Under the pieces are notes generated by a model, which saw only the letters and a program-made list of their open reading frames with translations, ran no database searches and was not told where the DNA came from. The position numbers and the translations under genes were made by a program. A DNA stretch of 32,876 bases. Source: Candidatus Syntrophosphaera sp. (GTDB lineage Bacteria; Cloacimonadota; Cloacimonadia; Cloacimonadales; Cloacimonadaceae). The stretch is from positions 1-32,876 of the forward strand of contig JAHYIU010000015.1 of assembly GCA_019429425.1 (NCBI GenBank), read 5' to 3'. Each line of letters starts with the position of its first letter. Within the stretch, counting starts at the first letter, position 1. Below are positions 13,814 to 32,876 of this stretch, piece by piece.

Positions 13814-13887
13814 CGTCATTAGCGACCTTTCGAACTTGTTTCTTTCCTGGCCCCACCCCCAAAAAAACGAATTTCCAACCCACCGCC

Positions 13888-13970
13888 CCCCTTATCAATA
13901 CGGTGTCAATACGGACTCAATACGGACTTTGTCCGTAATGAGTCCGTATTGACACCGTATTGATAAGGGG
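13888..13970. repeat. 83-base palindrome, full copy 1
   Basis: Two 40-base arms (13888-13927 and 13931-13970) pair with one mismatch around the loop TTT. Each arm is CCCCTTA plus three 11-base units of the form TCAATACGGAC (the first unit ends TG). A second full copy lies at 23227-23309 and a half copy at 32708-32747. The gap 13727-14110 otherwise holds the nested hairpin before it and the purA promoter after it. Confidence 0.95.
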
Positions 13971-14053
13971 AGCCAGAGGCTAAAAAACGAGAATTCTGAC
14001 CGGTGGTATCACCGGGAATATTCCTGTCCGGAGTGGCTCAACCAAGAAATCAT

Positions 14054-15388: not shown

Positions 15389-16585
15389 ATGAGATGGATC
15401 CTTATTCTGGCGTTCCTGCCAGCGGTTGTGGGGCTGGCCGCGCAAAGCGCTGACAGCCTTGATTTTCCCCTGCCCCATTACGTTAATCCCATCTTCGACA
15501 GCTTCACCCGCAACTACGTCTCCACCAGCGCCATGGGGCGCGGCTACACGGGCGTTTCGGTTCCCGGCGGGATCGACAACGTGCTGCTCAACCCGGCCGG
15601 ATACGTTCCGGACAAAGCCACCCTGCATATCGAAATGCTGGTCAAACCACCGGTGGATGCCAAATTTTACGCCGAGCACGACACCCTCACCGGGATCACC
15701 ATGACGCCGGAGGACAGGATGACCTCGCCGGTGCCGCTGGGTATCGTGGGAGGCGGTGGAAGTATCAGCCAGAGATTCACTTACGCCCTGCTCTATGCCA
15801 TGCCCAAGACCATCCGGGTGGATGATTTTTCCGTGGAAATGAACATGGGGGCCTATCTGCTCTCGCGCTATCCCTCTTTCTACCTGCACCAGTTCACCGC
15901 CAACGCGGCCTGGCACACAGAGCGCTTCCACGTTGGGCTGAACCTGCACAACCAGATCTACCGGATCGGGGATGTCACCTTCCTGCGAAGCTTTGAGCGG
16001 ATAAACGACAGCAAATATCTCCTGCGCCCGCAACTGGGGCTGCTTTACACCGGTGATTCTTTCAATGTCGGGCTCAGCGCGATTCCGCGGCAAAATGCCT
16101 CCTGGGACCTCAAATTCGCGCAATACGACACCCATCTGCCGCTCAACCTGGCGGCCGGAGGGGCTTATAAGACAGACAGTTCCAGCTTTGCCGCGGAACT
16201 CGATTATGAACAGACCAGCACCCTCAGCGACAAATACATCGATCGCTACACCCTCAAGCTGGGGGCCGAAACGACGGTGCGCAAATTCACCTACCGGGCC
16301 GGCTACATCTACCATCCGGAGATCTGGCACGGCCATTACAAGCTGCCGGACGCCGCTTCGGACACCCTCTCCATCTGGTGGAACGACGTTTTGGCAGGCG
16401 GCAAGGTGGAAAAAAACACCCAGCACATCCTGACCCTGGGCATGACCTGGCATGGCCGCGACGCGCGGATCAACCTGGGATTTTTGATGGACGTGGCGGG
16501 CCGGGCGCCGATCGCGCAGGTCAACGCCTCTCTGGACCTGTATTTCAGCGCCTTCAGGAAGAAAAACTTCCTCTTTTTCGATTAG
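15389..16585 (+). CDS. Outer-membrane beta-barrel protein, PorV/UPF0164-like
   Basis: The product has 398 residues. The signal peptide covers about 1-19 (cut after GLAA). A block near residue 48 reads MGRGYTGVSVPGGIDNVLLN followed by PAGY. This matches the start of PorV/PorQ/UPF0164 and FadL-like barrels, where the N-terminus carries a GMGGAY...NPAG motif. The remainder alternates polar and apolar residues like barrel strands, and the chain ends FLFFD, close to the aromatic end typical of BamA substrates. PorV-type proteins ferry type IX cargo in Bacteroidetes. With three sorting-domain proteins in the window that role is possible, but it is inference. Start ATG with GAGAGG upstream. The following gene's ATG directly abuts its TAG stop. 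Confidence 0.7.
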   Translation: MRWILILAFLPAVVGLAAQSADSLDFPLPHYVNPIFDSFTRNYVSTSAMGRGYTGVSVPGGIDNVLLNPAGYVPDKATLHIEMLVKPPVDAKFYAEHDTLTGITMTPEDRMTSPVPLGIVGGGGSISQRFTYALLYAMPKTIRVDDFSVEMNMGAYLLSRYPSFYLHQFTANAAWHTERFHVGLNLHNQIYRIGDVTFLRSFERINDSKYLLRPQLGLLYTGDSFNVGLSAIPRQNASWDLKFAQYDTHLPLNLAAGGAYKTDSSSFAAELDYEQTSTLSDKYIDRYTLKLGAETTVRKFTYRAGYIYHPEIWHGHYKLPDAASDTLSIWWNDVLAGGKVEKNTQHILTLGMTWHGRDARINLGFLMDVAGRAPIAQVNASLDLYFSAFRKKNFLFFD

Positions 16586-23209: not shown

Positions 23210-23226
23210 GTTTTCCATACGGCACT

Positions 23227-23309
23227 CCTTTTATCAATACGGTGTCAATACGGACTCATTACGGACTTTGTCCGTAATGAGTCCGTATTGACACCGTATT
23301 GATAAGGGG
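23227..23309. repeat. 83-base palindrome, full copy 2
   Basis: Arms 23231-23266 and 23270-23305 pair perfectly over 36 bases around the loop TTT. The outer four bases are CCTT against GGGG, which would still pair in RNA through two G-U pairs. The right arm is identical to that of copy 1. It is the first of several palindromes in the gene-free stretch 23210-23776. Confidence 0.95.
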
Positions 23310-23327
23310 AGGCATAGAGACGGAATA

Positions 23328-23537: not shown

Positions 23538-23608
23538 GGGTATTTTACAAAATACCCCGCCCCCTCTCCAAACTCAGATTTGATCTGAGTTTGGAGAGGG
23601 GGCGGGGT
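23538..23608. repeat. Two overlapping perfect palindromes (9-bp and 26-bp stems)
   Basis: GGGTATTTT (23538-23546) pairs with AAAATACCC (23549-23557). The bases 23554-23579 pair perfectly with 23583-23608 (26 bp, loop TTG). The two stems share ACCC at 23554-23557, so they cannot both be fully formed at once. The long stem holds the run CCCCGCCCCCTCTCC and would be very stable in RNA or as a cruciform. Confidence 0.85.
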
Positions 23609-23610
23609 CA

Positions 23611-23694
23611 TGAAACATGGATGGCATCATTTTGCCATGCGACGGCTGAAGCCGCCGCCTATATTCCTTCACCCCACCTGCGGCGGGGTTTGTC
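23611..23694 (-). repeat. 84-base dispersed repeat, copy A
   Basis: Read on the minus strand, this segment matches 32407-32490 (plus strand) with about nine differences by eye. It includes the hairpin halves CCCCACC/GGCGGGG, CGGCT/AGCCG and ATGGCA/TGCCAT. It begins next to the 26-bp palindrome and ends at TGTC, 24 bases before the promoter of the next gene. Confidence 0.85.
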
Positions 23695-23718
23695 CACAGG
23701 CCCGGTCGATTTCTTTGC

Positions 23719-32255: not shown

Positions 32256-32407
32256 TCGATTGGGCCCAGTTGCTGTCCGATCTTGGGCAAACCCTCCTGT
32301 GGGCGGCGCTGTGGACAACGCTGTCCTGGCTGGTCGGAATTGGGCTGGGCTATCTGGCCTACAGGTCTCGCGTCGCCCAACGTGTCCTGGTGCCGCTGTC
32401 GCTGCTG
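32252..32407 (+). pseudogene. Truncated ABC transporter permease (first 52 codons)
   Basis: The ATG overlaps the binding-protein stop, and the frame encodes MIDWAQLLSDLGQTLLWAAL then WTTLSWLVGIGLGYLAYRSR. This is the first membrane segment of an SsuC-type permease, normally about 250 residues. After VLVPLSLL (codon 32405-32407) the sequence becomes repeat copy B. The frame runs on through it for 15 meaningless residues to a TAG at 32453-32455. No later permease segment is seen up to the window end, so the rest was deleted or displaced. Confidence 0.8.
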
Positions 32408-32490
32408 ACAAACCCCGCCGCAGGTGGGGTGAAGGACAATAGGCGGAGGCTTTAGCCGTCGTATGTCAAAATTACGCCCTCCATGTTTCA
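32407..32490 (+). repeat. 84-base dispersed repeat, copy B, joined to the broken permease
   Basis: It is the inverted counterpart of 23611-23694, with about nine mismatches in 84 bases; 27 bases near one end are identical. Its first base is the last base of the final intact permease codon. It contains GGACAATAGGC and the AGGCTTTAGCC hairpin. Confidence 0.85.
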
Positions 32491-32572: not shown

Positions 32573-32707
32573 GGCTGAACGCACCACATCAGCTTGGATT
32601 ATCTCCCCAGACCTTCACACTCATTCACAAATCCACGGAGCATGCGCGTAATTGCCTCCATAACAACATCTTATCGCAATATCTCCATTCCTTCCCCCTG
32701 GGTGGCT

Positions 32708-32747
32708 CCCCTTATCATTACGGTGTCAATACGGACTCATTACGGAC
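32708..32747. repeat. 83-base palindrome, half copy (left arm only)
   Basis: The 40 bases match the left arm of copies 1 and 2, with one unit reading TCATTACGGTG instead of TCAATACGGTG. The arm ends at GGAC, exactly at the loop, and is followed by TAATACAGC instead of the right arm. Confidence 0.9.
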
Positions 32748-32771
32748 TAATACAGCTTCCACAATGAAACA

Positions 32772-32876
32772 TCATATATAAGAGCAAGTGCATAATTTCA
32801 TCAGCACTTCTGAGTTAAGGGTGTCGAAGTATTCAACGACTGCCTTTTCAAGTTGTTTCAAAGAGTCATACAGTCT
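32772..32876 (-). mobile_element. C-terminal end of an IS630-like transposase (runs off the window)
   Basis: On the minus strand the frame is open from the window edge to TGA 32772-32774 and gives 34 residues: RLYDSLKQLEKAVVEYFDTL then NSEVLMKLCTCSYI. The pattern of a helix, an EYF..LN turn and a closing LC...YI is how many IS630/Tc1-mariner family transposases end. The 24 bases between this stop and the half palindrome would hold the insertion sequence's end. The catalytic DDE part lies outside the window, so the family call is from the tail only. Confidence 0.5.

Follow-up and report, generated by a model that had tools for sequence, protein, structure and literature searches.

Palindromes in the window

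The window, i.e., the whole stretch of 32,876 nt that we analysed, carries two complete copies and one interrupted copy of a long palindrome built from 11-bp boxes. The first copy (93 bp, positions 13883..13975, no strand assigned) consists of an end that we call A, three 11-bp boxes, a TTT loop, three mirror boxes and a different end, B (GAGCCA). Its left arm (13895..13927, plus strand) reads TCAATACGGTG, TCAATACGGAC, TCAATACGGAC. The loop (13928..13930, no strand assigned) is followed by the right arm (13931..13963, minus strand), whose boxes, read on the minus strand, are TCATTACGGAC, TCAATACGGAC, TCAATACGGTG; compared with those of the left arm, one box differs (A/T). The second full copy (23222..23314, no strand assigned) has a diverged left foot, and the third is represented by its left half, with end B and three boxes, at 32703..32747 on the plus strand, where the loop is interrupted. 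The arms of the palindromes in the window are 95% complementary and the loop has three bases. One strand of the first copy folds as RNA with an energy of -75.1 kcal/mol (z = -15.6), and the window contains 19 matches to the unit, for 5.1 ± 1.9 expected.

The original prediction had placed palindromes at 13888-13970 and 23227-23309 and a half copy at 32708-32747. The palindromes are indeed there, and the placement stands; the edges do not, since they lie 46 bp from the centre (13883-13975 and 23222-23314). Nor does each arm carry a CCCCTTA foot, as the left foot of the second copy is TCCTTTTA instead. The count of 2.5 copies gives way to one of about 105 in the 2.38-Mb source genome. What had been taken for a half copy is an entire palindrome whose loop was broken up by an IS630-like insertion; the palindrome's other half lies on contig C41, within the same assembly.

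The end of this IS, which interrupts the loop of copy 3 at a TA, occupies 32748..32876 on the minus strand and encodes the C-terminal tail RLYDSLKQLEKAVVEYFDTLNSEVLMKLCTCSYI. Judged by eye, the reading frame in which the reverse strand ends resembles the C-terminus of an IS630-type transposase; a Pfam search with the 34-aa tail gave no hit. The repeat entered at position 32748 recurs at three other contig ends. The right half of copy 3, adjoining the other IS end, begins contig C41. Hence, copy 3 was once a whole palindrome that was split at the TA of its loop, and we could rule out that the half copy is one end of an autonomous transposon.

Two other repeats were seen in the window. Between copy 2 and the next gene there is a perfect 26-bp inverted repeat with a 3-base loop (23554-23608), which is not of the 11-bp type. 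Positions 23611-23699 and 32402-32490 are inverted copies of each other over 89 bp (88%) and contain GTCCCGAAGGGACA motifs. This pair resembles the GTCCC...GGGAC repeats around an IS200-type transposase at another locus (L144), and represents a second, independent REP-like family.

Copy number and architecture in the source genome

We searched the source genome (2.38 Mb in 134 contigs) with a two-box 22-mer, allowing up to two mismatches. We obtained 107 forward and 105 reverse matches, and none with the reversed pattern used as a control. Each palindrome gives one match of each kind, hence the genome holds about 105 copies, at a density of roughly one every 23 kb. The copies are near-identical 93-base hairpins in which an arm is made of three 11-base boxes, each of about one turn of the DNA helix. 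Exactly three boxes per arm were found in 58 of the 61 distinct copies that we read, and one box was lost in the other three. When copies were aligned by their centre, the information dropped to background beyond ±46 bp. This sharp end of conservation on either side of the centre sets the length of the element at 93 bp. The original prediction of a genome-wide element is thus borne out: the arm is dispersed in the source genome and in its relatives rather than being absent elsewhere. An Rfam search returned only sub-threshold matches to microRNA hairpins, plasmid and phage records had no match to the element, and we found no papers in the literature on Cloacimonas palindromes.

We analysed conservation in 58 copies oriented by their loop. 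The boxes are sequence-specific and spaced by 11 bp: their CANTACGG core is nearly invariant, and base N varies independently between arms. Apart from box base 4, which is A, T or C, and a single rare change, the two central boxes of each arm were invariant in the 58 copies. Core variation may be understated in these figures, because the loci were first picked with the central 22-mer and perfect matches were favoured among them; reading the partner arm lessens this bias without eliminating it. Base 4 of the inner boxes was complementary between arms in 29 of 58 copies, for 29.1 expected under independence. Similarly, the GTG/CTA variants of the outer box were unpaired at chance frequency, and mismatches in the stem were common across copies. 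Pairing at chance level around a fixed core indicates that the sequence of the boxes is constrained and that perfect pairing is not.

These results bear on the suggestion that the palindrome is a cooperative protein-binding array. The independent variation of the arms around a fixed CANTACGG and the period of 11 found throughout the family (see below) support an array of boxes spaced by about one turn; no candidate gene was identified for its putative binding protein.

Ends, edges and target sites

The two ends of the element differ at fixed positions. Position 45 was complementary between arms in only 4 of 58 copies, for 25.4 expected. In 50 copies we could distinguish CGCY (end A, of the form T[C/G]GCY) from GAGCCA (end B), with CCA at +44..+46 in 49/50, 50/50 and 48/50 copies, respectively. 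The core was found in both orientations relative to the ends (32 TTT vs 18 AAA), and therefore appears to invert within the foot. The same two types of ends recur in other Cloacimonadota genomes. We detected no excess of target-site duplications for edges 42-53 and lengths 2-9, and no complementarity between flanks. Insertion into pre-existing hairpins was also rejected, for lack of any signal.

The absence of target duplication and the difference of the ends between strands make it likely that mobilisation takes place on folded single-stranded DNA. A putative enzyme would act on the asymmetric foot and in this way copy or insert the hairpin as a whole.

The same data weigh on whether the element is the MITE of a DDE transposon, i.e., a pair of terminal inverted repeats that directly adjoin each other and have boxes for transposase binding in a subterminal position. 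Its long inverted arms with tandem boxes would resemble subterminal arrays for transposase binding, but such a MITE fits poorly with ends that differ at fixed positions and with the lack of target-site duplications at every edge and length tested. Furthermore, we found no arm without a partner in the Cloacimonadota loci that we examined, except for the copy split by the IS, with two more being cut by contig ends in this fragmented genome. Hence, no autonomous inverted-repeat parent is visible, and we regard a DDE origin as hardly likely at all.

Genomic context

Genes were called with a purpose-written codon-usage gene caller, and no copy lay inside a gene in the set that was checked. The 53 classified copies of the source genome were in 25 convergent, 20 tandem and 8 divergent gaps, for 4, 40 and 11, respectively, among 55 other gaps of the same loci. 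In other genomes, 14 of 49 classified copies were in divergent gaps. The palindromes could be bidirectional terminators, or hairpins stabilising 3' ends, that have spread to the ends of genes. This would account for the enrichment in convergent gaps (25/53 vs 4/55) and for the extreme stability of the RNA hairpin. However, divergent gaps also hold copies (8/53 and 14/49), there is no T-run, and orientation shows no bias relative to transcription (10 vs 7). A terminator would need neither an 11-bp repeat nor a fixed box sequence, and mismatches in the stem are common. We find this explanation improbable, in agreement with the original view that the repeat is more than a simple terminator; it is dispersed, occurs in divergent gaps too, and lacks a T-run.

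We found no conserved genomic positions between genomes: no pair of copies shared both flanking genes, and where purA follows the same upstream gene in two genomes (G004 and G001), the gap between them was empty. The locations of copies are lineage-specific. Mobility is proposed on the basis of this presence and absence between genomes that are about 75% identical at the PurA protein.

Distribution and the 11-bp pitch

The three-box pattern was identified in 14 of 125 genomes of the phylum, all in one family. The better-stocked genomes had 38-76 forward matches and many sister species had none. For example, G000, G003, G008, G010, G012 and G020 bear palindromes (about 46 copies in G020), and their relatives G002, G004, G006, G007, G009 and G011 are free of them. 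The spacer and the loop are particular to each genome, G018/HGW-1-like genomes have at least four boxes per arm, and the copies of G031 are degenerate.

We then scanned about 1.0 Mb of unselected family sequence for hairpins with repetitive arms, whatever the sequence of these arms. Of 38 hairpins with arms of at least 17 bp, 20 were periodic; the period was 11 in 19 of them and 9 in the remaining one. The latter, the lone repetitive-arm hairpin of this period, is at positions 16399-16480 of locus L361 (genome G021). In loci fetched around other genes, all five hairpins not based on TACGG had period 11. Other families of the phylum (0.54 Mb) gave six hairpins and viral contigs, used as a control (0.76 Mb), gave three; none was periodic. 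The box sequences of the family include ATCAAGYCTTA, TCCCATATCAT, CATTGCTTACC, CATTGCCCACT, CCCTAACAATT, AATTACGCATG and ATCAAGAGCAA. Boxes of the CATTACGG, CATTGCTT and CATTGCCC types look like possible steps of one drifting unit.

These distributions bear on a further alternative, that the palindromes are functional in place, as chromosomal sites of a nucleoid-organising or regulatory protein under purifying selection rather than a selfish repeat. Such selection would give a core fixed in both arms of 58 copies with variable base 4 and feet, and the decayed copies of G031 look as if the reader protein had been lost. Yet, positions are unshared between genomes, the repeat family is missing from part of one genus or distributed patchily in it, and copy number differs several-fold among relatives. 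We consider it unlikely that in-place function explains the repeat.

Matches outside the phylum were mostly of another nature. Viral contigs were rejected as carriers: single 14-mer matches were attributable to chance, and none of the three three-box matches was palindromic. Three-box matches in many other phyla were direct tandem arrays, and probably are 11-bp tandem repeats that match by chance. Palindromic ones were only found in two Bacteroidota, Prolixibacteraceae UBA10471 (L149, L196, L222, L231) and Bacteroidales LH_M29 (L213), which have long palindromes with 11-bp periodic arms. The architecture may therefore extend beyond Cloacimonadota. Chitinophaga sp. E66 (L157, L160, L165, L182, L221, L253) has dispersed direct arrays of 11-bp units (AATACGGTTAC), in which the order of variant units is constant and a common end, TTAGATGACAATT, is found at many loci; this is possibly another repeat family.

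Candidate mobilisers

We found no mobilising gene. Genes for Y1 transposases were near palindromes more often than we expected, with five cases 27-330 bp away on the 3' side. Hairpins of 11-bp units lie 27-264 bp 3' of the closest TnpA orthologues in G000, G008 and G010, and about 270-330 bp 3' of the RAYTs of G003 and G010. Mobilisation of the element as a REP, by a RAYT or an IS200-type Y1 transposase, would be in line with these distances, and a mismatched foot without target-site duplication fits a single-strand mechanism. However, the repeats around these genes belong to other REP families (ACCGGATTCATCCGG, TGTAGCCAGAGGATTCCGATCCTCTGCC and GTCCC...GGGAC), and the element lacks a GTAG tag. 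The RAYTs inspected in G000, G003 and G010 likewise have other REPs as neighbours; a palindrome is near some of these RAYTs, on one side only. Furthermore, G066 (82% complete) bears palindromes without a match to a Y1 gene, and the copy-rich G020 lacks the IS200-type TnpA found beside one of the source genome's copies. The proposal that the repeat is a substrate of a REP-type (RAYT/Y1) transposase in the usual sense, which had come with a check for a linked RAYT, is therefore not supported, and we hold a Y1 mobiliser to be very unlikely. Because Y1 genes have their own REPs around them, G066 has no Y1 gene and G020 no IS200-type gene, we treated the proximity of Y1 genes and palindromes as co-location in insertion-tolerant gaps.

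Individual candidates were rejected for similar reasons. The Y1/IS200-type TnpA beside the copy at L144 has another REP in its flanks, and both G020 and G029 have palindromes and no such gene. The RAYTs were discarded as mobilisers because they have their own, different REPs. Three RAYT loci with clear REPs of their own (L331, L335 and L146) illustrate these families, with ACCGGATTCATCCGG in G003/G010 and TGTAGCCAGAGGATTCCGATCCTCTGCC in the source genome.

Comparison with known repeats

Among known repeats, the orphan CGTC REP superfamily comes closest; it includes dRS3 of Neisseria and some RPEs of Rickettsia (PMC3733652). These repeats are dispersed, mostly intergenic, and have no known dedicated transposase; they have a CGTC (or TGTC/CCTC) tag at one end, a 3' tail that is mostly CCA, stems of 8-9 bp and loops of 4-5 bases (PMC3733652). 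The elements described here are likewise dispersed palindromes without a known transposase, and they have the CCA tail. Their tag is CGCY in most copies and CGTC in L147. In contrast, their stem has about 45 bp of 11-bp boxes, and their loop has three bases. Since the tail agrees, the tag is close without being equal, and stem length and loop disagree, we did not place them in this superfamily; they are filed as a new form among the dispersed extragenic palindromes.

GTAG REPs and REPINs have the GTAG tetranucleotide at one end, are 20-40 bp long, and the same palindrome flanks their cognate RAYT (PMC8266576, PMC3116915). They share with our element the high copy number, the extragenic location, the conserved stem mismatch and the strand asymmetry. 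Here, however, there is neither GTAG nor a flanking RAYT of its own, the element is several times longer (93 bp), and its arms are not themselves hairpins. It resembles MITEs in being short, non-coding, inverted-repeat, multi-copy and intergenic, and differs from them by the lack of target-site duplication and parent transposon and by its fixed arrays of 11-bp boxes. PHO boxes are head-to-tail direct-repeat binding arrays with 11-bp units, and are promoter sites found at few loci. The 11-bp direct repeats and the sites about one helical turn apart are common to both, whereas the arrays studied here are palindromic, number about 100 per genome, and differ in box sequence between species.

Interpretation

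The hairpins probably represent a small DNA repeat that spreads and is of a kind not described before; its boxes would be read by a putative protein. We favour, with some confidence, the reading that the element is a REP/MITE-like palindrome of 93 bp, non-autonomous, extragenic and dispersed, with arms that are arrays of putative protein-binding boxes. A sequence-specific protein would bind head-to-tail along each arm and touch every 11-bp box, one per turn of the helix. Between species, the sequence of the box and the protein may drift together, with the 11-bp pitch being held. A more general proposal, which we make tentatively, is that mobile hairpins form a class throughout the family, with the pitch and not the sequence as its defining trait; their boxes would be replaced alongside a putative multivalent DNA-binding (perhaps mobilising) protein, and they would spread without a known transposase.

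To our knowledge, no mobiliser is known for orphan REP-like repeats, and what they do is a matter of dispute. The stem of this repeat has an internal 11-bp ruler that is kept while the sequence changes. This makes it directly accessible to experiment, since a single labelled arm would be expected to capture the putative protein. If the proposal is correct, it would link a family of dispersed repeats to a helically phased binding array, and show the co-evolution of such elements and their readers in an uncultured phylum.

Insertion sequences at the palindromes

Insertion sequences recur at the palindromes. In two genomes, IS630-like ISs interrupt the loop at a TA (L382, L392, L479). The end of an IS3-like IS abuts the palindrome foot at seven loci in four genomes (L147, L172, L174, L181, L200, L474, L475). 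This end is TTTTTTAGGACGCGACA in the USDV genome, with variants in the others, and the distance between the IS motif and the first core is constant (19-20 bases). The recurrence of IS3-like ends at this distance from the foot suggests site-directed insertion. IS3-family elements that target REPs are known, e.g., IS1397 and ISKpn1 (PMC1525189). The recurrent presence of ISs at palindromes, IS3-like at the foot and IS630-like in the loop, is reminiscent of these elements; their targets are REPs, whereas the targets here are palindromes of 11-bp units, for which recurrence suggests specificity.
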